From the NCBI GenBank assembly GCA_002794105.1, contig PHFL01000065.1:1-64000 (forward strand): a DNA stretch of 64,000 nucleotides, in the 5' to 3' direction. The stretch comes from Candidatus Thermochlorobacter aerophilus (lineage in GTDB: Bacteria > Bacteroidota > Chlorobiia > Chlorobiales > Thermochlorobacteraceae). The notes under the pieces are model-generated. The model did no database searches. It saw nothing but the letters and a program-made list of their open reading frames with translations, and was not told where the DNA came from. The position numbers were made by a program, and so were the translations under genes. Below, piece after piece: positions 5,180-63,282 of this stretch (its first letter is position 1; each line of letters opens with the position of its first letter).

Positions 5180-6687
5180 GCTTGCACGACTTCGGTGATG
5201 GGCGAAGTTTCGTAGCTAGTCTTGAATGTCAAGGGCAATTTGACCGAGACGACAGCGCCTCCTTCTGGCGCATTGCTCACATCAATTCGCCCGCCATGTT
5301 CATTGATAATCTTGTAGCAAATGGCAAGTCCCAAGCCAGTGCCGTTGGGTTTTGTCGTGAAAAATGGGTCAAAAATTTTAGTTAGGATGTCTTCTGGCAC
5401 GCCCGGACCAGTATCCTGAAATTGGATTTCTAAGCATCCGACTTCCTCTTTGCCCTGCTTGAATGCACTGGGTTTGACCGAGAGAAACAGTTGCCGTCTT
5501 TGAAGCTCTTTGGCTGACATGGCTTCTATAGCATTGAGCATGATGTTGAGAAAGACCTGACGAATTTGTTCAGGGTCGATGCGCAAGGTTGGCAAGTCTT
5601 CGGCATAGTCGCGCACAACCTCAATGCCGCTGCGCTTGAAGTTTTCAGAAAGTAATGCGATGACTGATTCCAAAATGTCGGGGATAGAGCTGCGAATGAT
5701 TCTCGGGCGTCGGTGACGGGCAAAGGCAAATGTGCTTTCGATGAAATTGTTGATGCGGTCGACTTCCTGCAAGATGCGCTTAAGATATTGATACGGTTCA
5801 GTGTTTTCATCCATGTCAATCAAGACGGCTTGCACCATGGATTTGATGCCTGCTAGTGGGTTTTTTACTTCGTGCGAAATGGCAGCGGCGATTTCACCAA
5901 GGGTTTGCATTTTTTCGGCTTTTTCAGCTTGCTGGCGGCGACGGCGAACTTCTGTGATGTCTTTGAGAATCATCACAGCACCATCGAGCTCGCCATTCTC
6001 TTTGACGCGTGGCGAAATGGAATAGCCAATGGTCTTCATTTGTTCGCCATGTTGGATGAGCATTTCACTTCTGAAGCTATACCCAGATAGAATTTTTTCG
6101 CGCTCTTCGACCGAAATGCTAAAAAGTAGAGACACATCCTTGCCACAGGCACTTTGCTCACTGATGCTGATGATTTCTTCTGCCGCTGGATTTAGTGCCA
6201 TGATACGCAGCAGCCTATCCATTACAATGATAGGTTGTGGCAATTGGTAGATGGAGTTGGTCTGTGCAGGTGCAGTAATGGAAGGAAATGGAGTAGTTAG
6301 GGCATAATGCTGAAGAAGCATTTTCTGCCGTTGTCGTAGCGCTCGATGCACGGAGTCAGCCGCTTCGATGCTGTTGCGTGTCACATCATTTGAGTATAGC
6401 AACACATCGCTTGCCCCTGCACGAAAACTTTTGACCACTAAATCTATGCTTGGCGTTGACACAAAGCTAACGATAGGCGTCGTCCAAAGCTTTTCTCTCA
6501 ATTGCCTAATCATCTCTAGGTCACTTTCTTCATTGAGCACCTCAATGTAAATGATGTCTGTGCCGAACTCAATTGCATCGACAAAGTCAGGCGTATAGAG
6601 TTCGGTCTTCATGGACTGCAAGTTAAGAACTCGCATCAAGAAAGCTGTGCGTACAGAAGGATAGGCTACAATCGCCACCTTTGGCAT
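5176..6687 (-). CDS. NtrB-like PAS sensor histidine kinase with degenerate N-terminal receiver domain
   Basis: 503 residues, cytosolic. Residues 1-~120 look like a response-regulator fold that has lost its chemistry: no acidic pair after strand 1, Glu (YIEV) where the phospho-acceptor Asp should be, and no Lys after strand 5. A PAS domain follows (~150-260, starting [13 protein letters not shown]). The HisKA box contains [12 protein letters not shown] with the phospho-His, then the ATPase N-box [11 protein letters not shown]1 DTGPGVP and G2 GTGLGLAI. The best comparison is to NtrB/AtoS-type kinases. No partner regulator is adjacent, and recQ follows with a 4-bp overlap. The signal sensed is unknown. 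Confidence 0.88.
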
Positions 6688-6773
6688 AGTTTCATCACCG
6701 ATTGAGTCTTTTCAAAAAGCTAACTTAAGATACGCTCTCGCTTCAGCATAGCCACATCTTGTGCGCAGTGATG

Positions 6774-7634
6774 TCATAGACTCATGGCTTTAACAGCACA
6801 TCCAATGGCTTTGAGATATTTTTCAGGCTCTGTGATTTGTGCATCCAACACAAAGTTCTTAGGTAATGTGGCTCTTGTAACTGGCACTTTTACCGCATTT
6901 TGGATAAAGGAAATCACATCATCAGTTATGGCGCTGCCAATCAAGCTAATTGAGCTTGGTGCAGGTAACTTACGAAGAGCAGTGAGCGCAAAATATGCAG
7001 CGTCAGTTTCTGCTTCCAGTGTCCAGTAGTTTAGTGTCTCGATATTGGGTATAGACGAGGAGCTGAGGGCAAGATAGTTGGGTTCAATTTCCAAGAGCAC
7101 CATGCGCTTGTTGGTATGGCTTTGCAAGTAATGCATGGCAATATGCCCAATGTCAATGAGATTGATTTCTTTACGCAATGGTAGCAACAGCATCCTTAGG
7201 CGTGTCAGGTACCGCCGTGGCAGAAACACCAAAACATAATGTTCATACTTACCGTTTAGTGCGCTACTGACTTGCACAGCTTGCCAGATGTAGTCGTTGG
7301 GCTGACGCAAAAACAGCGCCGCTTCAGCTTGGCACTCTTCTTCGAAGAGAGCTTCTGGCAAATTTTTCTCCACTTGTATTTTTAGAAACTTTGCACCAGT
7401 CAAATTTAGGCAGACAGCCACTTTTTGAGGGGTAAGCTGCAAAATTGCCTTGCTTAATTTCTGTGTTACTTCAGAGACCAACTTTGGATAGCCCTTGTCC
7501 AGTAGGTCGCTGTAAAGGTCGGCATTGAAGAGTAGCTCATCACAGCACTGCACATAATACCATCCTGTCTCTCCACGATTAACATGTGCTAGGCGAACAG
7601 AGGTCCTTTCTATCGAGATACCAATTTGGGACAT
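6774..7634 (-). CDS. PilM-like actin-fold protein
   Basis: 286 residues with the order of strands expected for the ASKHA/PilM family: IGISIERTSVRLAHV at the N-terminus, AVCLNLTGAKFLKIQ, EECQAEAALFL (like the 'E...A...' helix of PilM), and VLLEIEPNYLALSS before the second half. The first phosphate motif of PilM (DIGTSSIK) is changed to SIERTSVR, so nucleotide binding may be weakened. PilM normally sits on the cytosolic side of type IV pilus or type II secretion machines with PilN/O/P. None of those are here, but a ComEA-like gene ends 12 bp upstream. Function is inferred from fold only. Confidence 0.55.
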   Translation of the reverse strand: MSQIGISIERTSVRLAHVNRGETGWYYVQCCDELLFNADLYSDLLDKGYPKLVSEVTQKLSKAILQLTPQKVAVCLNLTGAKFLKIQVEKNLPEALFEEECQAEAALFLRQPNDYIWQAVQVSSALNGKYEHYVLVFLPRRYLTRLRMLLLPLRKEINLIDIGHIAMHYLQSHTNKRMVLLEIEPNYLALSSSSIPNIETLNYWTLEAETDAAYFALTALRKLPAPSSISLIGSAITDDVISFIQNAVKVPVTRATLPKNFVLDAQITEPEKYLKAIGCAVKAMSL

Positions 7635-8164: not shown

Positions 8165-9580
8165 TCAGGGTTGCAGCTGGATACTAAGGTTCCCAATTCC
8201 CTTTTTCTGCATTAAGGCTTCCAGCTCTTGTGTAGTCTTTGGAAGAGCACCAGACAGCACAACACAACCATCTTTCGTGATAAGTACCATGTCTTCAATG
8301 CGCACACCAATATTCCACCACTTTTTGTCACATGGCGACCCCTCAGCAATATAGATACCGGGTTCTACCGTGATAATTTGATTTTCGGCTAATACGCCTG
8401 TGCTTGGGTCGTGCACATCTAAGCCAACATGATGACTTGTGCCGTGCATGAAGTATAAGTGGTAATCTTTGCGCTCTCGGATGAGACCCAGTTTAAGCAA
8501 GCCTTCTGCTATGACTTCTACAGCTTTAAGGTGTGGAGCGTGGAAGGGTGCGCCGGGTTTGCACTCTGCAATAGCAGCGGTCTGCGCCGCCAGTACCAGT
8601 TCATAAATCTGGCGCTGTGCATCGGAGAATTTTCCATTGACTGGAATCGTGCGGGTAATATCTGCTGCATAGCCACGATACTCACCACCCATGTCCATGA
8701 CGACAAGCTCGCCATCTTGCATTTTTTTGCGTGTCGCATCGTAGTGAAGAATCACACTATTTTCGCCTGCCCCGACAATGCTCGGATACGCTGTGTATTC
8801 ACATCCCATTTTCTTGAAAACATACTCTGCCACAGCAGCCAGTTCGTACTCATACATATTCGGCTCGCACGACATAATGGCTTGCATGTGCGCTGCCATG
8901 GCGATTTCTACTGCCTTGCGAATCAAGCGTATTTCTTCGGGGGATTTTGTGACGCGCAGTTTTGCTAAAATGGGCAGGGCATTTTGCACGGTAAAGCCTT
9001 CAGCCCTGAAGCGCAGTTCTGCTTTGCGCTGTGCCTCAGGAAATGAACGGCTTGTTGGGTGGTAGGGGAACATGACAACCTTGAAACGTGCTTTTTCCTC
9101 TTTGAAAAATTTATCGAGAAAGATTTCAAAGTAATCAACTGTTTCTGTTGCTGCCAGTTTCAAGATATCTTTTGCTCCCTCTTTGCCCAAGCGACGGCCT
9201 GTCCAAATCTCTTCTTTCGGATTGCGTGGCTGGACAAATAGCAGCTCTTGTGTCGTTGTCGTGCCTACTGAAATCGGGTATTTGAAAAGCATCAGCACGC
9301 CTGCAGGCTCGCGCAAGCCTGAAAGGTAGTAGAGCGAGTTATCTTGGCGATATGAGTAATTTACATCGTTACTGCGGTTTTTGACATCGGCGGCAAAAAA
9401 TAGCGCTACAGCACTATCTGGCATGTGTTGAATGAACCGCTCACGATTGCGCTGATGAAATTCAGGTGGCAAGGCATCTTCATCTTGCCACATCGCTACT
9501 AACGGCACTGGCCTATGGCATAAGCCCAGCAACACAATGCATAGGACACTGATATACAGAGATAGACTTGTTCGTCGCAT
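8165..9580 (-). CDS. pepP: Exported Xaa-Pro aminopeptidase (aminopeptidase P family, M24B)
   Basis: 471 residues from ATG 9580, which begins a good signal peptide (MRRTSLSLYISVLCIVLLGL). An upstream ATG at 9631 would overlap the previous gene by 20 bp and bury the signal. The N-terminal aminopeptidase P domain starts with FHQRNRERFIQHMPDSAVALFF. The pita-bread domain supplies the metal ligands: MDMGGEYRGYAADITRT (two Asp), HGTSHHVGLDVHD (His), VEPGIYI (Glu) and IGVRIED (Glu). It removes N-terminal residues in front of proline, here probably in the periplasm. It sits between phzF-like and comEA-like genes on the same strand. Confidence 0.92.
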   Translation of the reverse strand: MRRTSLSLYISVLCIVLLGLCHRPVPLVAMWQDEDALPPEFHQRNRERFIQHMPDSAVALFFAADVKNRSNDVNYSYRQDNSLYYLSGLREPAGVLMLFKYPISVGTTTTQELLFVQPRNPKEEIWTGRRLGKEGAKDILKLAATETVDYFEIFLDKFFKEEKARFKVVMFPYHPTSRSFPEAQRKAELRFRAEGFTVQNALPILAKLRVTKSPEEIRLIRKAVEIAMAAHMQAIMSCEPNMYEYELAAVAEYVFKKMGCEYTAYPSIVGAGENSVILHYDATRKKMQDGELVVMDMGGEYRGYAADITRTIPVNGKFSDAQRQIYELVLAAQTAAIAECKPGAPFHAPHLKAVEVIAEGLLKLGLIRERKDYHLYFMHGTSHHVGLDVHDPSTGVLAENQIITVEPGIYIAEGSPCDKKWWNIGVRIEDMVLITKDGCVVLSGALPKTTQELEALMQKKGIGNLSIQLQP

Positions 9581-9611
9581 ATCTGGTCCGCTACCTACGG
9601 TTTGGAAAGTG

Positions 9612-10514
9612 TCAGATGTAAATTTCTGCATTCATTACCGTTACGGCGTAACCGCTAATCCAAAGATTGCATACTTCACCATTTTTGACCTCTAGTTCTG
9701 CCCATACTCTTCCGCCGCGGTCAATTTCATAGCCTTGCTCGAGCGTAACAGGCACTCGCCCTTCACCTGTTACTCGACCATTCTGATAGAGATACACAGC
9801 AAGCGGACCTTGCGCCGAACCTGTAACAGGATCTTCATCAATGCCTAGCGAAGGCGCAAAAAAGCGTGAATGTGCAGCACTTGTCTCGTACTTGGTGTCG
9901 GTTGTGAAAGCACAGAATCCTGTGATGTGGTATTTCTGCGATAGCGTTTTCAGGTCGGTGATGCTCGGTTTCATCTTGAGTAGCGGTTCGCGATTGACAA
10001 ACGGAATGTAGATGTAGCCGTTGTCGGATAGCCAGATGGGCAGACTGCTATCCAACAGCTCAGTTGGTATAGCAAAAGCTTGGCAGAGCTCAAACTTGTG
10101 TCCCTTGTATGGTACGAACTTTGGCAAGGGTAATCCCATGGTAACGCGGACCTTGCCTTCACTTTGATGCACACGAACAGGCAGTATCCCTCTACGAGTT
10201 TTGACTCGCAGTTCCCGCTCGCCATCCTGACCCAAATCATAGAGTTTAACTTCAGCCAGAGCGTGAAAGGCGGCAATTGTGGCATGACCGCACAAGTCTA
10301 CTTCTGTGCGCGGTGTCATCCAACGCAACTCAAGGTCATAGGAATCATCTTTTGCTGGAAGCACGAATGCTGTCTCCGACAAGTTTATCTCTCGTGCAAT
10401 TTTTTGCATCTCCTCGTCAGAGAGTCCTTCTGCATGCATGATTACTGCGGCAGGATTGCCAGTATAGGCACGGTCAGTAAAAGCATCAATGTGCTTAAGT
10501 TTATAGGTTCTCAT
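9612..10514 (-). CDS. PhzF-family epimerase/isomerase-like protein
   Basis: 300 residues, the normal size of the PhzF/DapF-like fold. Visible hallmarks are HIDAFTDRAYTGNPAAVI at the N-terminus, the catalytic Glu in NLSETAFVLP (~residue 47), the VDLCGHATIAAFHAL segment, and GIDEDPVTGSAQGPLAVYL in the second half. True phenazine genes are absent nearby, so the substrate is unknown. Family members act as isomerases or hydrolases on small carboxylic acids. ATG start at 10514; it is probably the first gene of the seven-gene minus-strand run, since 322 bp without genes precede it. Confidence 0.88.
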   Translation of the reverse strand: MRTYKLKHIDAFTDRAYTGNPAAVIMHAEGLSDEEMQKIAREINLSETAFVLPAKDDSYDLELRWMTPRTEVDLCGHATIAAFHALAEVKLYDLGQDGERELRVKTRRGILPVRVHQSEGKVRVTMGLPLPKFVPYKGHKFELCQAFAIPTELLDSSLPIWLSDNGYIYIPFVNREPLLKMKPSITDLKTLSQKYHITGFCAFTTDTKYETSAAHSRFFAPSLGIDEDPVTGSAQGPLAVYLYQNGRVTGEGRVPVTLEQGYEIDRGGRVWAELEVKNGEVCNLWISGYAVTVMNAEIYI

Positions 10515-10836
10515 TATTGCATTGAGTTAGTTTTAAGTAAGTGTTTAGCTGCAAAAGTAATCATCTCTTCTTTTGTGCAAAAGTATAGCTACAACTACAG
10601 AGGTATGCTAACCAACTGAACCGATAAGCTAACGCAGGGCTACTTTTTGGCACACTCTGGCTACGGCGTAGCACTCAGGGTAGAGCCGCAAGCAGAGCTT
10701 GAGAAGGGCAATTCGATATGCTGCTGTAGGCAAGTTGGCAATGGTAGTAAAAGTTGGCTGATGCAGCTGCTCTTCGCCTCTGATTTAGCTACGAAAGCTC
10801 TATCCCTCTTCTCTTTGTGAGAAGAGGGATGAGAGG
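10515..10836. other. Gene-free stretch between phzF-like gene and metY
   Basis: 322 bases with no supported gene. The right end holds the metY terminator hairpin (10802-10830). A short palindrome, GCTAC-GGC-GTAGC, lies near 10660. The part next to 10514 is A/T-rich and is the likely promoter of the phzF-led genes. No tRNA or known riboswitch was recognised. Confidence 0.5.
10802..10830 (-). terminator. Hairpin downstream of metY
   Basis: A perfect 12-bp stem (10802-10813 with 10819-10830, loop 10814-10818) lies 6 bases past the metY stop codon on the minus strand. The arm sequence (CCCTCT.../...AGAGGG) resembles one arm of the cloverleaf element at 37246-37325, so it may be a reused repeat. 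No strong T-run follows. Confidence 0.55.
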
Positions 10837-12584
<1,748 letters not shown>

Positions 12585-55414: not shown

Positions 55415-55463
55415 TGCATTAGGAGCCCATCAGGTTCGGAAGAGTTTTGTGCAAAAAATCCTT

Positions 55464-55477
55464 TGCATAATTATGCA
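55464..55477. promoter_or_regulatory. ArgR operator (ARG box) 1 upstream of argC
   Basis: Perfect 14-bp palindrome TGCATAATTATGCA, 53 bases before the argC start. It matches the TGnATwwwwATnCA core of arginine repressor sites. A second box starts 20 bases later, the tandem arrangement expected for hexameric ArgR. Confidence 0.85.
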
Positions 55478-55483
55478 TTTCCA

Positions 55484-55497
55484 TGTATAATTATGCA
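55484..55497. promoter_or_regulatory. ArgR operator (ARG box) 2 upstream of argC
   Basis: TGTATAATTATGCA, one change from box 1, starting 20 bases after it. The pair should let ArgR repress argCJ. Confidence 0.85.
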
Positions 55498-55529
55498 CTT
55501 TTTTACATCAATCATTCAAAACTTGAAGA

Positions 55530-56555
55530 ATGAGCGGTACGGTTACAGTCTCTGTGGTCGGAGCGTCTGGGTATTCCGGCGCAGAGCTGGTGCAACTTCT
55601 TCTGCGGCATCGTGGCGTTCGGCTCCATAAGCTCTTTGCAAGTTCATCTGCGGGCAAAAGCTTTGCCGAGCTCTATCCACGGTTTCGCGGAGAAGTGGAC
55701 ATCGTGCTTGAAACCTATTCGCCTGAAGCGGCTTGCCAGAGCGATTGTGTGTTCCTTGCTCTGCCGTCTGGCGAGGCAATGCACCTTGTGCCAGAGTTAC
55801 TGGCGCGTGGCAAGAAAATCATTGACCTTGGCGGCGACTTTCGCTTGAAAGATGCGGCGCGCTACGAACGCTTCTACGCACACGCGCATGCTGCCACTGA
55901 ACTTCTGCCGCAAGCCGTCTATGGTCTTACCGAGCTTAACCGTGCCGCTATTCAGCATGCAACCTTGCTGGCAAATCCGGGTTGCTATCCGACCAGTATC
56001 ATTTTGCCGCTTGTGCCGCTACTCCAATCCGAAATCATTTCTCCTGAACGCATCACAATTACCTCCATGTCTGGCGTCTCTGGCGCAGGACGCCACGCCT
56101 CAATTGATTTGCATTTTTGCGAGGTCAATGAAAGTGTAAAAGCCTATAAAGTTGGTGAGCATCAACATCTGCCTGAAATTGAGCAAGCGCTTTTTGACTT
56201 CAGTGGCAAAGCTGTTTCCATTTCATTTGTGCCGCACCTGATTCCCATCACGCGTGGTATTTACACCACTATTCATGCTACGCTGTTGAAGGATGTCAGC
56301 GCATCAGATATTGAGCAAGTTTATGCCAACTTCTATGCCCATGAGCCCTTTGTCAGATACAGCGCCACGCTTGTGCCACATCTGAAAGGGGTGGTGCATA
56401 CCAATTTCATTGACATTGGCTTTAGGATTCGCAAAGAGACTCGGCAGCTTATTGTGCTTTCAGCGATTGACAATTTGCTCAAAGGCGCGGCAGGTCAAGC
56501 TGTGCAGAACTTCAATTTGATGTTTGGCTTTGAAGAAACGGAGGGGCTGAAGTGA
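55530..56555 (+). CDS. argC: N-acetyl-gamma-glutamyl-phosphate reductase
   Basis: 341 residues. Third step of arginine synthesis: NADPH reduction of N-acetylglutamyl phosphate. Motifs are VVGASGYSGAELVQLLLRHRGV, VFLALPSGEAMHLVPELLARGKKIIDLGGDFRLKD, the catalytic Cys in ANPGCYPTSIILPLVPL, and GVSGAGRHASIDLHFCEVNESVKAYKVGEHQHLPEIEQ. The stop overlaps the argJ start by 4 bp (56552-56555). Two ARG boxes lie upstream. Confidence 0.96.
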   Translation: MSGTVTVSVVGASGYSGAELVQLLLRHRGVRLHKLFASSSAGKSFAELYPRFRGEVDIVLETYSPEAACQSDCVFLALPSGEAMHLVPELLARGKKIIDLGGDFRLKDAARYERFYAHAHAATELLPQAVYGLTELNRAAIQHATLLANPGCYPTSIILPLVPLLQSEIISPERITITSMSGVSGAGRHASIDLHFCEVNESVKAYKVGEHQHLPEIEQALFDFSGKAVSISFVPHLIPITRGIYTTIHATLLKDVSASDIEQVYANFYAHEPFVRYSATLVPHLKGVVHTNFIDIGFRIRKETRQLIVLSAIDNLLKGAAGQAVQNFNLMFGFEETEGLK

Positions 56556-57775
56556 GCAATACCTTTCAAGATGTGGAGGGCGGCATCTGTGCACCAAAAG
56601 GGTTCAAGGCGGCAGGCGTTGAAGCGCGCATTCGCAAGCCCAAGAAAGACCTTGCGCTGATTGTCTCTGAGCCGCCAGCAAGTGTTGCCGCAGTCTTCAC
56701 GACCAACCAAGTTGCTGCTGCTCCCATTCAGGTGTGCCGAGCGCAACTTCAACAGCATCGCACCTGCTCTGCCATCTTTGTCAATAGCGGCAATGCCAAT
56801 GCCTGCACTGGCGCACGCGGACTGGACGACGCATGGGAAATTGTGCATTACACAGCGGCAGCGTTGCATGTGCCACGCAGTCAAGTCCTGCTGGCTTCCA
56901 CAGGCGTGATTGGGCAGTTTCTGCCTATGGACAACATTCGTCAAGGCATTTATGCAGCTGCCGCTTGTCTTGCTCGTAGCGCGCAAGCCAGCACCGATGC
57001 GGCTGAAGCCATCATGACCACCGATACCTTTCCGAAGCAAGTTGCTGTGCGTTTCATGCTGGGTAGCCATGAAGTGCACATCGGTGCAATTGCCAAAGGC
57101 TCGGGTATGATTGCACCTAATATGGCAACCATGCTCGCATTCCTGACTACGGATGCGGCGATTTCACCATCGGTGCTGCAACATGCTCTCTCTGCTGCCA
57201 CGCGTTGCTCTTTTAACCGCATCAGTGTCGACGGTGACTGCAGCACCAACGATGCTGTCTTCTTGCTCTCAAATGGACTGGCTGGAAATGCTCTCATTGA
57301 AGATGTTCACTCGGCTGACTACTCCACATTTTTTGCGACACTTCAAGCCGTCATGATACGCCTTGCCAAAATGATTGTCAAAGATGGCGAAGGTGCAACC
57401 AAACTCATTGAAATTCATATAAGCGGAGCTCATGATGAGGACGAAGCGGAACGCGCGGCACGCAGCATTGCAAACTCACTTTTGGTGAAAACGGCTTTTC
57501 ATGGCGCCGATGCCAATTGGGGCAGAATCATGGCCGCACTCGGATATTCGGGGATTCGCTTCAGCCCAGAAAAAGTTGAGCTATGGCTGGATGACCTTGC
57601 AATCTTGAAGCCCAACTTTCACATCGCGCTCGACGAAGCCAAAGCCAAGGCAGTGCTAAGTAAGCCAGAAGTGGTCTTGCATGTTCATTTGCACCAAGGC
57701 GACGCCAGTGTCACATTTTGGACATGCGACCTTTCTGCCAAGTATGTAGAAATCAACGGGAGCTATCGCTCATAA
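56552..57775 (+). CDS. argJ: Glutamate/ornithine N-acetyltransferase
   Basis: 407 residues, GTG start coupled to argC. The protein cleaves itself at the MATMLAF site inside GSGMIAPNMATMLAFLTTDA, making Thr the nucleophile. Also seen: GGICAPKGFKAAGVEARIRKP near the start, INSGNANACTGARG, LLASTGVIGQFLPMDNIRQGI, and C-terminal ADLSAKYVEINGSYRS. ArgJ recycles the acetyl group from N-acetylornithine to glutamate; bifunctional forms also use acetyl-CoA. Whether the start supply comes from it or from the GNAT gene downstream is open. Confidence 0.95.
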   Translation: MSNTFQDVEGGICAPKGFKAAGVEARIRKPKKDLALIVSEPPASVAAVFTTNQVAAAPIQVCRAQLQQHRTCSAIFVNSGNANACTGARGLDDAWEIVHYTAAALHVPRSQVLLASTGVIGQFLPMDNIRQGIYAAAACLARSAQASTDAAEAIMTTDTFPKQVAVRFMLGSHEVHIGAIAKGSGMIAPNMATMLAFLTTDAAISPSVLQHALSAATRCSFNRISVDGDCSTNDAVFLLSNGLAGNALIEDVHSADYSTFFATLQAVMIRLAKMIVKDGEGATKLIEIHISGAHDEDEAERAARSIANSLLVKTAFHGADANWGRIMAALGYSGIRFSPEKVELWLDDLAILKPNFHIALDEAKAKAVLSKPEVVLHVHLHQGDASVTFWTCDLSAKYVEINGSYRS

Positions 57776-57781
57776 CCACTT

Positions 57782-57795
57782 TGCATAATTATGCA
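57782..57795. promoter_or_regulatory. ArgR operator (ARG box) 3 between argJ and the GNAT gene
   Basis: Identical palindrome TGCATAATTATGCA, 7 bases after argJ and 38 bases before the GNAT ATG. It suggests a second ArgR-controlled promoter for GNAT-argB-argF-argR-argG. A looser inverted repeat (TTCACA ... TGTGAA, 57805-57827) follows. Confidence 0.8.
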
Positions 57796-57833
57796 TCGGA
57801 CACTTTCACATAACTTTTTCTTGTGAATGCAGA

Positions 57834-58343
57834 ATGACCACATCATCTACATCGCAGTCATCACGCTATCTGGTGAGCACCGACAAATCGCTGCTCAACC
57901 TTGATGTCATTCATGGCTTTCTGACCAATTGCCACTGGGCGAAAGGCATTTCGCGTGAGCTGGTGGCGCGCTCCATTGAGCATTCGCTTTGCTTTGGCGT
58001 CTATGAGGTGCTTCCCGATGGCAGGCTGCAGCAAGCTGGCTTTGCACGAGTGATTTCCGACTATGCCACATTCGCTTATCTCTCCGATGTCTTCATCTTG
58101 GAAGACTATCGCGGTCAAGATTTATCTGTGCTTCTGCTTGAGAAAATCATGAGCCATCCTGACTTGCAAGGTCTGCGCCGCTGGCTGCTTGTTACCACCT
58201 ATGCACATGGGCTTTATGAAAAGTTTGGTTTCTCGGCGCCCGCTCATCCTGAAAAGTTCATGGAAATTTTTATTCCCAATCTCTATGAAAAAGAGGCGGC
58301 GCTCACTGCGCTCATCAAGGAAGAAAAATCAGCCGTGAAATAA
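57834..58343 (+). CDS. GNAT-family N-acetyltransferase in the arginine operon
   Basis: 169 residues. The GNAT core is GFARVISDYATFAYLSDVFILEDYRGQDLSVLLLEKIMSHPDLQGLRRWLLVTTYAHGLYEKFGF, with the acetyl-CoA loop in EDYRGQDLSVLLL (R/Q-x-x-G-x-G/A form). This type is common and acts on diverse small amines or protein N-termini. The sequence is not the ArgA/short-NAGS type that I would recognise, but the ArgR box upstream and argB 15 bp downstream point to arginine metabolism. A role as N-acetylglutamate synthase is possible, not shown. Confidence 0.75.
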   Translation: MTTSSTSQSSRYLVSTDKSLLNLDVIHGFLTNCHWAKGISRELVARSIEHSLCFGVYEVLPDGRLQQAGFARVISDYATFAYLSDVFILEDYRGQDLSVLLLEKIMSHPDLQGLRRWLLVTTYAHGLYEKFGFSAPAHPEKFMEIFIPNLYEKEAALTALIKEEKSAVK

Positions 58344-58358
58344 ATCCAATCGTCAGCC

Positions 58359-59273
58359 ATGAAAACCTTTAGCTCGAAAGAAGAAGTGTTAATTGAGGCA
58401 CTGCCATACATCACCACCTACGAAAACAAAACCTTCGTGATTAAATACGGCGGCGCGGTTATGACCGACGACGCGCTCAAGCAGACCTTTGCGCAAGATG
58501 TTACGCTGCTGCGCAAAATTGGCATTAACATCATTGTCGTGCATGGCGGCGGCAAGGATATTACCAACCTTGCGCAGAAACTTGGCGTCGAGTCGCGTTT
58601 CGTCGATGGCATGCGCTACACTGACGAAAAAATGATGCAAGTCGTCATGATGGTGCTCGCTGGCACGCTCAACAAAGAAATTACGGGACTTATCATCAAA
58701 CATGGCGGCAATGCCATCGGGCTATGCGGCATTGACAATGGACTATTGCGCGCCAAAAAATTGCAAAGCGATGTGGATTTGGGTCTGGTCGGCGACATCA
58801 CGCAGGTCAACACGGCATTTTTGCAACTTCTCATGCAGCACGACATCATTCCTGTCATTGCGCCAATTGGTCTGGGCGAACAAGGCGAACTCTACAACAT
58901 CAATGCAGATGTGGCAGCCACAGAAATTGCTATTGCCATGAAAGCTGAAAAACTGGTCTATCTCTCTGATACAGATGGCGTCATTGTCGATAACACCTTG
59001 ATTCCAACGCTTGCCAAAAGTGAAGCCTTAGAGTGGATTGAACAAGGCAAAATTTATGGCGGCATGATTCCGAAGGTGCATTCAGCTTTTGAAGCCATTG
59101 AGGGCGGGGTCAATAAAGTGCACTTCATCAATGGTGGCATCAAGCATGCTCTGTTGCTTGAAATTTTTACCAATGAAGGCATTGGCACGGAAATCATCAA
59201 CGAAGATGCGCCCACTACTGCAGCGTCGCAGCGGCGGCGTGTGCAGCGCATCATGGAAGGAGCGGTAAAATGA
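58359..59273 (+). CDS. argB: Acetylglutamate kinase, arginine-sensitive type
   Basis: 304 residues. It phosphorylates N-acetylglutamate. Visible motifs are KYGGAVMTDDALKQTFAQDVTLLRKIGINIIVVHGGGKDI, FVDGMRYTD, GNAIGLCGIDNGLLRA, NINADVAATEIAIAMKAEKLVYLSDTDGV, and GGMIPKVHSAFEAIEGGVNKVHFINGGIKHALLLEIFTNEGIGTEI. The extra N-terminal helix (MKTFSSKEEVLIEALPYIT) is typical of the arginine-inhibited hexameric form. The stop overlaps the argF start by 4 bp. Confidence 0.96.
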   Translation: MKTFSSKEEVLIEALPYITTYENKTFVIKYGGAVMTDDALKQTFAQDVTLLRKIGINIIVVHGGGKDITNLAQKLGVESRFVDGMRYTDEKMMQVVMMVLAGTLNKEITGLIIKHGGNAIGLCGIDNGLLRAKKLQSDVDLGLVGDITQVNTAFLQLLMQHDIIPVIAPIGLGEQGELYNINADVAATEIAIAMKAEKLVYLSDTDGVIVDNTLIPTLAKSEALEWIEQGKIYGGMIPKVHSAFEAIEGGVNKVHFINGGIKHALLLEIFTNEGIGTEIINEDAPTTAASQRRRVQRIMEGAVK

Positions 59274-60238
59274 AGGCGGACTTCTTATCCCTCTATGACC
59301 TTGAAAGCCGCGAAGAACTCTTTCAGCTCTTTGAGCTGTGCGATAGGCTCAAGACAGACCACACGGCAAAGCCACTTTCGGGCAAAACAGCGGCACTGCT
59401 TTTTCAGAAACCTTCGCTACGCACGCGTGTTTCATTTGAGGTTGGGATTTATCAACTGGGCGGTCATGCCATCTATCTGGGTCAAGAAGCCATTGGCATT
59501 GGTGAGCGGGAAAGCGTGCCTGATGTGGCGCGCACGCTCTCGCGGTTCAATGACCTCATCATTGCGCGACTGTTTGAGCATTCCGTGCTTTTAGAACTTG
59601 CCGAATATGCAACCGTGCCCGTTATCAATGCGCTGACTAATCACTCGCATCCATGTCAGGTCTTGGCAGACCTCTACACGCTTCGGCAGCATGGTAAGCT
59701 CTTCGAGGGCGTCAAGGTCGTGTTCGTCGGCGATGGCAACAATGTGGTCAACTCATGGCTGGAGATGTCGACGCTCTATCCGCTGCATTTTGTCTTGGCA
59801 GCGCCTGCCGCTTACAATCCTCACATTGCGACGCTCAAAGCGGCAATGAAAGCTGGAGTTAGCAAAATTGAAATTTTGGAAGAGCCTGAACTTGCCGTGC
59901 GTCAAGCCGATGTGATTTACACCGATGTATGGACCAGCATGGGACAGGAGTCGGAAGCTGAAGCCCGTCGGCGCATCTTTCGTCCTTATCAAGTCAATGC
60001 CAAACTGCTCTCGCTTGCGAAGCCTGACGCTATTGTCATGCACTGCTTACCGGCTCATCGTGGCGAGGAAATCACCGATGAGGTCATCGATGGGGCGCAG
60101 TCTGTGGTGTTTGACCAAGCCGAAAATCGACTGCATGTACAGAAAGCCATTTTGTTCAAGCTCTTGCACACGAGTGCGCCGAAGACCACGCTCCACACAC
60201 ACGCTGGCAAACGCAAGAAACTTCTTTCCACTGATTAG
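59270..60238 (+). CDS. argF: Ornithine carbamoyltransferase
   Basis: 322 residues. It makes citrulline from ornithine and carbamoyl phosphate. Marks are KPSLRTRVSFEVGIYQLGGHAIYL (carbamoyl-phosphate site), NALTNHSHPCQVLADLYTLR, VVFVGDGNNVVNSWLEMSTLYPLHFVLAAP, YTDVWTSMGQESEAE, and the Cys loop MHCLPAHRGEEITDEVIDG. The HCLPAHRGEE signature fits ornithine and not the succinyl- or acetyl-ornithine enzymes of some Bacteroidota. Confidence 0.96.
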   Translation: MKADFLSLYDLESREELFQLFELCDRLKTDHTAKPLSGKTAALLFQKPSLRTRVSFEVGIYQLGGHAIYLGQEAIGIGERESVPDVARTLSRFNDLIIARLFEHSVLLELAEYATVPVINALTNHSHPCQVLADLYTLRQHGKLFEGVKVVFVGDGNNVVNSWLEMSTLYPLHFVLAAPAAYNPHIATLKAAMKAGVSKIEILEEPELAVRQADVIYTDVWTSMGQESEAEARRRIFRPYQVNAKLLSLAKPDAIVMHCLPAHRGEEITDEVIDGAQSVVFDQAENRLHVQKAILFKLLHTSAPKTTLHTHAGKRKKLLSTD

Positions 60239-60304
60239 CTCATGGCGAACTGTTTCGTATCTTTGAAGCTCATTTCTTATGGCACCGAATCTGAGCGTGA
60301 TGCT

Positions 60305-60766
60305 ATGTCTTCATCTGAAAAAGCGCAGCGCCAGTTGGCTATCAAAGAAATTATTTCGCAAAAGGATATTTCCAGTCAAGAAGAACTTGCGCGTGAGCTG
60401 GCTTTGCGCGGCTTTGAAGTCAATCAAGCCACGCTCTCACGCGACCTCAAGGAACTCGGCATTGCCAAGGTTTCTACGCCCGAGGGCGTCTGGTATCAGC
60501 TTCAGCCTGAAAATGAGGCGCATCGCTTGCGCTCGCTCATCAGCTATGAGATTGAATCCATTCATGCCAATGAAAGCCTCATTGTCATCAAAACCTTGCG
60601 TGGGCGTGCGTCTGGCGTGGCTGAAATTTTAGACCGATTGGATATTCCCGACATTTTGGGCACCATTGCTGGCGACGACACCATCTTCATTGCGCCAAGC
60701 TCAACGAAGAAAATCTCAACCATTGTGAGGCGCATCAAAGAAGCCATTTTTCAAACGGAATCATAG
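60305..60766 (+). CDS. argR: Arginine repressor
   Basis: 153 residues from ATG 60305 (MSSSEKAQRQLAIKEIISQKDISSQEELARELALRGFEVNQATLSRDLKELGIAKV), the usual ArgR size. An ATG at 60242 would add 21 residues and sits only 3 bp after argF. N-terminal winged helix with QATLSRDLKEL, C-terminal arginine-binding and hexamer domain with LRGRASGVAEILDRLDIPDILGTIAGDDTIFIAPSS. It binds the three ARG boxes of this cluster with arginine as co-repressor, by family knowledge. Confidence 0.95.
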   Translation: MSSSEKAQRQLAIKEIISQKDISSQEELARELALRGFEVNQATLSRDLKELGIAKVSTPEGVWYQLQPENEAHRLRSLISYEIESIHANESLIVIKTLRGRASGVAEILDRLDIPDILGTIAGDDTIFIAPSSTKKISTIVRRIKEAIFQTES

Positions 60767-60799: not shown

Positions 60800-62029
60800 A
60801 TGCCAAAAGAAAAAATTGCCGTGGCTTACTCGGGCGGATTGGACACTTCTGTCATCGTTAAGTGGCTTCAAGAAAAGTATGATGCTGAAGTCATTACCGT
60901 TACCGCCAATCTGGGACAGACCAAAGAACTGATTGGCGTCGAGGAAAAGGCTTACAAAACTGGTGCAAAAAAAGCCTTCATCTTAGACCTGCAAGAGGAG
61001 TTTGCGACCGACTTCATCTTCCCCGCCCTAAAGGCTGGTGCGCTCTACGAATGGAGCTACCCGATGGCCACTTCACTTGGGCGACCGCTTATTGCCAAAG
61101 CACTCGTCGAGATTGCAAAGCAAGAAGGCTGCACCGCTGTGGCGCACGGTTGCACTGGCAAAGGCAACGACCAAGTGCGTTTCGAAGCCACCATTGCGGC
61201 TCTGGCGCCAGAGCTGAAAGTCTACGCCCCGCTGCGTGAGTGGGAGTTCAAATCTCGTGAAGAAGAAATTGCTTACTGCGAGCGCCATGGCATTCCCGTC
61301 AAGGCGACCAAAGATAGCCCTTACTCCATTGATGAAAACATGTGGGGCACCTCCATTGAATGCGGTTTGCTTGAAGACCCCAAACTGCCGCCACCTGCTG
61401 ATGCCTATCAGCGCACCGTCTCGCCAGAGCAAGCCCCAGACCAACCCACGCAAGTTGAAATCGAGTTCGAGCATGGCGTCCCTGTGGCACTCAATGGCAA
61501 GAAGATGAGCCCTGTGGAACTTATCATGACGCTCAACACTATCGGCGGCGCCAATGCTATTGGTCGGTTGGATTTGGTTGAGAACCGTTTGGTTGGCATC
61601 AAGTCGCGTGAGCTATACGAAGCACCTGCCGCCACCATTTTGCACTTTGCTCACCGCGAGCTCGAGCGACTCACGCTGGACAAAGATACCATGCACTACA
61701 AAGCCAAAATCTCGCACGACTACGCTGACCTCATCTACAACGGCTTGTGGTATTCGCCATTGCGGTTTGCCCTCGACGCCTTTGTGAATGAGACGCAAAA
61801 AGTAGTTAGCGGCACCGTCGTGCTCAAGCTCTACAAAGGCAATCTGGAACTGCTCGGACGCTGGTCGCCCAACTCGCTCTATGATACCCGCCTTGCCACC
61901 TACACCGAAGAAGATACCTTCGACCACAAAGCCAGCATCGGTTTTATCAAAATCTACAGCTTGCCGCTCAAGACCTACTACCGTGTCAATGGCAATCCGC
62001 TTTCAGAACAGAAAGTCATTGCAAGGTAA
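60800..62029 (+). CDS. argG: Argininosuccinate synthase
   Basis: 409 residues. It joins citrulline and aspartate with ATP. N-terminal [17 protein letters not shown] (PP-loop), then [68 protein letters not shown], and [17 protein letters not shown]. Last gene of the cluster; argH is not in the window. A strong terminator follows. Confidence 0.97.
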
Positions 62030-62124: not shown

Positions 62125-63282
62125 CTACACAGCGATGGGCTCTTCCAGAAAGGCTCTCATCACGGCAGAGACGCCGCTCCCGATTTCAAACGGATAATTG
62201 ATTTTTTTGAGCGTCATTTCCAATGCGCCGATAACGGTGAGCATATCGAGCTCGTCATAGAAGCCCAAATGCGAGATGCGAAAAATTTTGCCGGCGTAGC
62301 TATCCTGTCCAGCCGCGACGGTAATGCCGTGCTCGAGTTTCAGGATTTTGTTGAAGGTTTTCCACTCTACGCCTTCAGGTAGCCAAACGGGTGTTACCGC
62401 ATTTGAGGGCGAATTGCTGAAGAGTCGCATGCCTAATGCTTCGCAGCCCATGCGGCACGCCATGGAAAGTCGCTGATGTCGTTTCCAGATGTTTTCTATG
62501 CCTTCTTGTTTGATAAGTTGGAGCGATTCATCCAGACCGATGACGAGCGAGACCGCTGGCGTGAAGGGTGTGTCGTTGTCTTTGTATGACTTCAAGGCTT
62601 TTTTGAGTGAGAGGTAGTAGCTGGGCAGTTTGGCGGTCTCAATGGCGTTGATGGCGCGTTCGGAGAGGGCAACGAGTGCCAGTCCGGGCGGCATCATCAA
62701 GCCTTTTTGCGAGCCGGTTACGCACGCATCAATGCCCCAGTCGTCAAAGCGCAGTTCATGTGCACCGACGGCGGTTACGCCATCGACGCAAATGAGTGCA
62801 TCGGAGTGTTCGCGAATGGCTTTTGCCATGGCTTTAACGTCAGTTGCCGTGCCTGTGGAAGTTTCGCTATGTGTGAAATAGACGCCTTTGGTGTCTGGGT
62901 GTTCTTTCAGCGCTTTGATAATCTCTTCTGGCTGAATACTTGTGCCCCACGGCACTTTTAGCTCGATGCAATTGCCAGTGTATTTGCGCGCCATGTCTGC
63001 CCAGCGTTCGCCGAACTTACCGCCATTGACGGCAATGATTTTATCGCCCGGCGAAAACATTGAGACCATGGTCGCTTCCATGCCCCCTGTGCCTGAGCAG
63101 GTCAGCACCACAACAGGTTGTTTGGTTTGGAAAAGGTATTTCAAATTCTCGTGCACGCGGGTCAGAATTTCCATGAACTCTGGATTGCGATGATGAATCA
63201 TCGGTGCCGCCATGCGCAGCATCACTTGTTCAGGCACGGGGGTCGGACCGGGTGTGAAAAGTCGTTTTTTCATGCTTGCCAA
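62125..63282 (-). CDS. Class V aminotransferase (alanine/serine-glyoxylate type)
   Basis: 385 residues. N-terminal LFTPGPTPVPEQVMLRMAAPMIHHRNPEFMEILTRVHENLKYLF is the family start. PLP contacts are TCSGTGGMEATMVSM, CVDGVTAVGAHELRFDDWGIDACVTGSQKGLMMPPG with the Schiff-base Lys in SQKGL, and a C-terminal IRISHLGFYDELDMLTVIGALEM. Relatives are alanine-glyoxylate, serine-glyoxylate or (S)-ureidoglycine-glyoxylate aminotransferases. It is convergent with argG. The exact donor is not fixed by sequence alone. Confidence 0.9.
   Translation of the reverse strand: MASMKKRLFTPGPTPVPEQVMLRMAAPMIHHRNPEFMEILTRVHENLKYLFQTKQPVVVLTCSGTGGMEATMVSMFSPGDKIIAVNGGKFGERWADMARKYTGNCIELKVPWGTSIQPEEIIKALKEHPDTKGVYFTHSETSTGTATDVKAMAKAIREHSDALICVDGVTAVGAHELRFDDWGIDACVTGSQKGLMMPPGLALVALSERAINAIETAKLPSYYLSLKKALKSYKDNDTPFTPAVSLVIGLDESLQLIKQEGIENIWKRHQRLSMACRMGCEALGMRLFSNSPSNAVTPVWLPEGVEWKTFNKILKLEHGITVAAGQDSYAGKIFRISHLGFYDELDMLTVIGALEMTLKKINYPFEIGSGVSAVMRAFLEEPIAV

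Follow-up and report, generated by a model that had tools for sequence, protein, structure and literature searches.

Introduction

In Escherichia coli, the ArgR regulon is based on palindromic operators of the form TGnATwwwwATnCA that occur in tandem pairs, and the consensus of these ARG boxes has A at position 3. The locus described here shares the palindromic form and the tandem pairing, but has C at position 3 and a centre spacing of 20 bp instead of 21 bp. According to the available text of PMC5839063, the 18-bp ARG boxes of E. coli are separated by 3 bp, whereas the boxes of Bacillus are contiguous and 20 bp long, matching the 20-bp spacing of the pair before argC in the present locus. 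The closest described arrangement is that of AhrC on the Bacillus subtilis argCJBD-carAB-argF operon, for which the accessible part of PMC9245794 describes a pair of operators at the argC promoter with one more downstream; thus, a three-box arrangement has precedent. The two systems also differ, since the third operator of B. subtilis lies inside argC (PMC9245794, in part), whereas here it is located 2.3 kb downstream, before a GNAT acetyltransferase gene, and carAB lies outside the operon without a box.

Streptomyces coelicolor ArgR provides another useful comparison. In the available sections of PMC5839063, its boxes are built from TGCAT...ATGCA half-sites and arranged as contiguous 20-bp boxes, and two gel-shift-tested examples, the argH box TCATGCATGAGTATGCAGAA and the argG box CTTTGCATGGTCATGCGTAA, have C at position 3. 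On the other hand, the S. coelicolor regulon is presented there as very wide with mostly degenerate boxes, whereas the genus studied here yielded only three operators that are conserved. In the literature searched on ArgR in Chlorobi/Chlorobium and on Thermochlorobacter with arginine, no account of the regulon was found. A precise, testable ArgR motif for this little-studied Chlorobiales family, whose members are relatives of the green sulfur bacteria, may be of value, and a change of ArgR half-site preference can be followed with it inside one order.

Organization of the arginine gene cluster

The window (the whole 64,000-nucleotide stretch of DNA that was analysed) contains genes of arginine biosynthesis in the order argC-argJ-GNAT-argB-argF-argR-argG:

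55530..56555, + strand: argC, N-acetyl-gamma-glutamyl-phosphate reductase (TIGR01850, 425.6 bits, cut-off 233.6)
56552..57775, + strand: argJ (NF003802, 511.1 bits, cut-off 351)
57834..58343, + strand: GNAT acetyltransferase, relative of XCC2953 (PDB 2OZH) (Pfam PF00583; PDB searches)
58359..59273, + strand: argB, acetylglutamate kinase (TIGR00761, 253.9 bits)
59270..60238, + strand: argF, ornithine carbamoyltransferase (TIGR00658, 373.8 bits)
60305..60766, + strand: argR, arginine repressor (TIGR01529, 142.2 bits, cut-off 130.45; PF01316 and PF02863)
60800..62029, + strand: argG, argininosuccinate synthase (TIGR00032, 534.1 bits)

The products of argC, argJ, argB, argF, argR and argG all scored above their NCBIfam cut-offs, which bears out the proposal of the initial annotation that the boxes lie in a cluster encoding ArgR itself. 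The longest argR open reading frame begins at 60242; because the alignment of relatives begins at 60305, the ATG at the latter position is most likely the start. Both Pfam domains of ArgR, the N-terminal winged helix-turn-helix and the C-terminal arginine-binding domain, were detected. In the alignment, the protein retains the GTIAGDDT stretch, which is reported in the available text of PMC5839063 to be indispensable for the binding of arginine by the corynebacterial protein. A gene for a class V aminotransferase adjoins argG at 62125-63282 of the window; the nearest model is BhcA, with 334 bits against a cut-off of 650.

Putative ArgR operators in the cluster

Three palindromes and one promoter-like sequence were located in this region:

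55464..55477, no strand assigned: ArgR box 1 before argC, TGCATAATTATGCA; exact match, with orthologous boxes in two genus relatives (G001 and G002)
55484..55497, no strand assigned: ArgR box 2 before argC, TGTATAATTATGCA; one mismatch, with the tandem pattern present in genus relatives
57782..57795, no strand assigned: single ArgR box between argJ and the GNAT gene, TGCATAATTATGCA; exact at this place in 8 of 9 family genomes
55462..55491, + strand: sigma-70-like promoter TTTGCA-18-TATAAT, overlapped by both argC boxes; a candidate by consensus match only

All three boxes fit the TGnATwwwwATnCA form with no mismatch, the two before argC are 20 bp apart from centre to centre, and the third one sits within the 58-bp gap between argJ and the GNAT gene. 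This confirms the earlier observation of three near-identical operators, two before argC and one before the GNAT gene. With at most one mismatch allowed, three matches were found in the window, compared with 0.01 expected from 100 dinucleotide shuffles. Under looser criteria, the excess vanishes: seven matches with three mismatches allowed are not unusual against 4.75 in shuffles, and TGNATWWWWATNCA at one mismatch gave four matches against 2.29 expected. What speaks for the boxes is therefore how nearly identical they are, where they lie and how well they are conserved, and loose motif counting, which gave numbers not above chance, was set aside as uninformative.

Based on the cluster context, the spacing, the promoter overlap and the conservation at orthologous places, it is highly probable (roughly 0.9) that these palindromes serve as operators for the ArgR whose gene lies in the cluster. 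Three features of ARG boxes were found here: a palindrome near an arg promoter, a spacing of the argC pair within 20-21 bp, and orthologous conservation. Binding, arginine dependence and repression are inferred from the ArgR family. In known relatives, ArgR is a hexamer. With arginine bound, the present protein would sit on the two adjacent boxes at 55464-55497, which overlap the promoter-like sequence, and could shut off argC-argJ together with read-through transcription.

The argC pair could also be read as an RNA hairpin instead of a protein-binding site. The hairpin would be either an attenuator or the intrinsic terminator for the ubiE-hydrolase genes that lie upstream. A terminator scan indeed returned the segment 55464-55497 as a stem of 15 pairs with CTTTTTTACA behind it, an inverted repeat of a kind that two tandem palindromes inevitably produce. 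However, only 3 of the 15 pairs in the stem are G-C, the number of terminator matches (3) shows no excess over shuffles (3.1), and the argC pairs of G001 and G002 are not followed by a T tract. Moreover, the most conserved site is the box before the GNAT gene, a single palindrome without a T tract. A hairpin thus appears very unlikely, and the ArgR-operator reading is retained below.

Conservation within Candidatus Thermochlorobacteriaceae

A total of 61 genomes, including that of the window (G000), were searched, of which nine belong to its own family, Candidatus Thermochlorobacteriaceae (f1), and three (G000, G001 and G002) to its genus. The initial annotation had proposed a motif for the lineage, and this holds for family f1 only: at least one exact box was present in all nine f1 genomes, whereas the argC boxes in other families of the order are of the TG[AG]AT type. 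The exact box lies before the GNAT gene in eight of the nine. In the ninth, G003, it stands farther upstream, with an antiporter gene between it and argC. By eye, this open reading frame between operator and argC (in the region 8465-10926 of G003 locus L104) looks like an NhaP-type antiporter, and the distance from the box to argC is 1.4 kb.

The argC box pair is orthologous in all three genus genomes. No box was detected in the approximately 200 bp before argC in the other six family members (G003-G008), which counts against the operator reading. In an anchored comparison of seven genomes at the GNAT box, 14 of 14 box columns were invariant, compared with 2 of 80 flanking columns; these boxes were found by a search allowing at most one mismatch, a filter that somewhat favours apparent conservation and exactness.

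Half-site preference in the order

For comparison, 21 argC loci were fetched from the other families of the order (f2-f4), of which 18 have a perfect TGnATwwwwATnCA box upstream, two have none and one was unreadable. The box thus occupies the same place before argC in these Chlorobiales families, but their clusters lack the GNAT gene and their half-sites differ at position 3, which is mostly A (A 31, G 7, T 3, C 1; n = 42) instead of the predominant C of f1 (C 27, T 3; n = 30). Since the argC boxes of the other families are of the TG[AG]AT type, C at position 3 is, as judged from these counts, a trait of family f1. The replacement of the usual A by C, to which the initial annotation had drawn attention, is correct with respect to E. 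coli-type boxes; it is not novel in a wider sense, as Streptomyces boxes also have C (PMC5839063, available text).

The ArgRs of f1 contain VNQATLSRD[LM][KR]E, and those of other families mostly have VAQ or ITQ followed by ATLSRD[FC]. This is a single clade-level contrast inseparable from descent, and an explanation of C at position 3 by these residues is not claimed.

A probable second target outside the cluster

The exact 14-mer TGCATAATTATGCA occurs twice in the 3.43 Mb of G000, both times in the arg cluster, whereas a second-order Markov model with parameters from the window predicts 0.02 occurrences. The pattern TGNATWWWWATNCA was found at seven places in this genome, comprising three in the arg cluster, two at a duplicated second target and two inside long open reading frames; as a point against the operator reading, regular-expression matches in four simulated genomes numbered 3, 2, 2 and 6. 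The genome-wide TGNATWWWWATNCA search would also reveal any perfect box at argD. No box with fewer than two mismatches to TGnATwwwwATnCA was present in the 400 bp upstream of argH, carA and both carB pieces. In G000, carB consists of two genes on separate contigs (C18 and C3), covering model positions 1-485 and 474-1049.

The probable second target is the following gene:

G000:C10, positions 6487-7113 of locus L120: gene for a 208-aa uncharacterised protein with ArgR-type boxes upstream and an invariant HDxxHx11E motif

The region is present on two G000 contigs (C10 and C57) with three differences in 3014 bases; the genome is listed at 12.13% contamination, part of which is therefore probably redundancy. 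Among 31 genomes searched, the gene occurs in five, all in f1, and each of the five has a box upstream: a tandem pair with 20-bp spacing that begins 180-185 bp upstream in the three genus genomes and, in G003 and G005, single one-mismatch boxes at a distance of 167-175 bp. The upstream neighbour of the gene differs between G000 and G001; therefore, the box goes with the 208-aa gene. Apart from Coq4, the protein gave no convincing match in Pfam, NCBIfam or PDB, and the match to Pfam Coq4 is weak and restricted to one of five members (E 0.25). The HDxxHx11E motif, invariant across these proteins, resembles the zinc motif of Coq4.

Sites with at most one mismatch numbered 32 in the genus; 15 of them belong to the three operators or to the duplicate on the second contig, and 17 lie at other loci. 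Among the latter, 16 were examined, 14 of them falling in open frames 100 or more codons long, and the seventeenth (G001:C10:28870) is inside a 514-aa open reading frame; blastn gave matches between no two of 15 of these loci. The 17 further sites are treated as chance occurrences.

These results only partly support the suggestion that the regulon is self-contained. The absence of boxes at argH, carA and carB agrees with it, but boxes also occur outside the cluster, upstream of the unrelated 208-aa gene in every carrier. The cluster itself is divided in some relatives. On contig C4 of G001, argR-argG lies 140 kb from argC-argJ-GNAT-argB-argF and has no box of its own upstream, and in G005 an argC without a box is on a different contig from GNAT-argB-argF-argR-argG, whose box array is kept.

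A second target without a recognizable role in arginine metabolism, together with a position 3 unlike that of other families of the order, might suggest that the boxes are bound not by the neighbouring ArgR but by another regulator of amino-acid or nitrogen metabolism, with the 208-aa gene among its targets. This is extremely improbable, because the form, spacing and position of the boxes fit ArgR boxes, the corresponding place before argC is taken by canonical ArgR boxes in the outgroup families, and C at position 3 is found in the Streptomyces ArgR boxes mentioned above. With ArgR as the regulator, the system is an ordinary feedback system in a new lineage, and its only unusual part is the two unexpected targets, i.e., a GNAT gene that forms part of the arg operon and the gene of the conserved 208-aa protein, both with an unexplained link to arginine.

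The acetyltransferase gene and its probable operator

Through the box at 57782-57795, ArgR would also act on the downstream block GNAT-argB-argF-argR-argG. The box would either serve an internal promoter or share one hexamer with the argC pair by way of a DNA loop. Such a control point would place argR within its own feedback. Within the ArgR reading, it is somewhat more probable than not that the box works independently, as a weak operator at an internal promoter and without looping to argC. Its location in the gap between argJ and the GNAT gene is consistent with this, as are the box array of the separate G005 block and the g3/g4 genomes, in which further half-sites flank the GNAT box on both sides in steps of about 10 bp (about one helical turn) and no box precedes argC. 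The free-standing arrays in G004-G008 argue that the GNAT site can also work alone. However, in the genus the box is solitary, with no partner at +/-20 bp (2-4 of 10 consensus matches there), so its binding could be weak; the stretch from 57436 to 57900 gave no promoter-like match; and the B. subtilis set, two operators at the argC promoter plus one inside argC (PMC9245794, in part), is comparable. A loop over the 2.3 kb between the GNAT box and the argC pair is speculative.

A broader scenario may be offered tentatively, and as a whole it is rather doubtful. In family f1, the ArgR operator would have moved from TG[AG]AT to TGCAT, and a small regulon would have taken in two proteins, an acetyltransferase of the XCC2953 type encoded within the arg operon and an HDxxHx11E protein of 208 aa encoded elsewhere. 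In the genus, the two argC boxes and the GNAT box would then account for all six DNA-binding domains of a single hexamer, and the 2.3-kb loop could be closed in this way.

The GNAT gene is present in all nine f1 genomes, and a weak match only was obtained in 1 of the 52 other genomes. Its product matched only Acetyltransf entries in Pfam, and the only NCBIfam model matched, ArsN2, scored 23.2 bits against a cut-off of 125. In a PDB profile search, XCC2953 (2OZH) was the nearest solved relative, being the first of nine matches; neither an NCBIfam model nor any structure among these nine matches was an N-acetylglutamate synthase. The simplest reading of these matches is that a generic acetyltransferase was recruited. 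A scan of named genomes gave 142 loci encoding GNAT relatives, of which 80 were kept. Neighbouring argC, argJ, argB and argF genes were found at only five of the 80, all of them in family f1, and one more locus has a weak argF-like neighbour.
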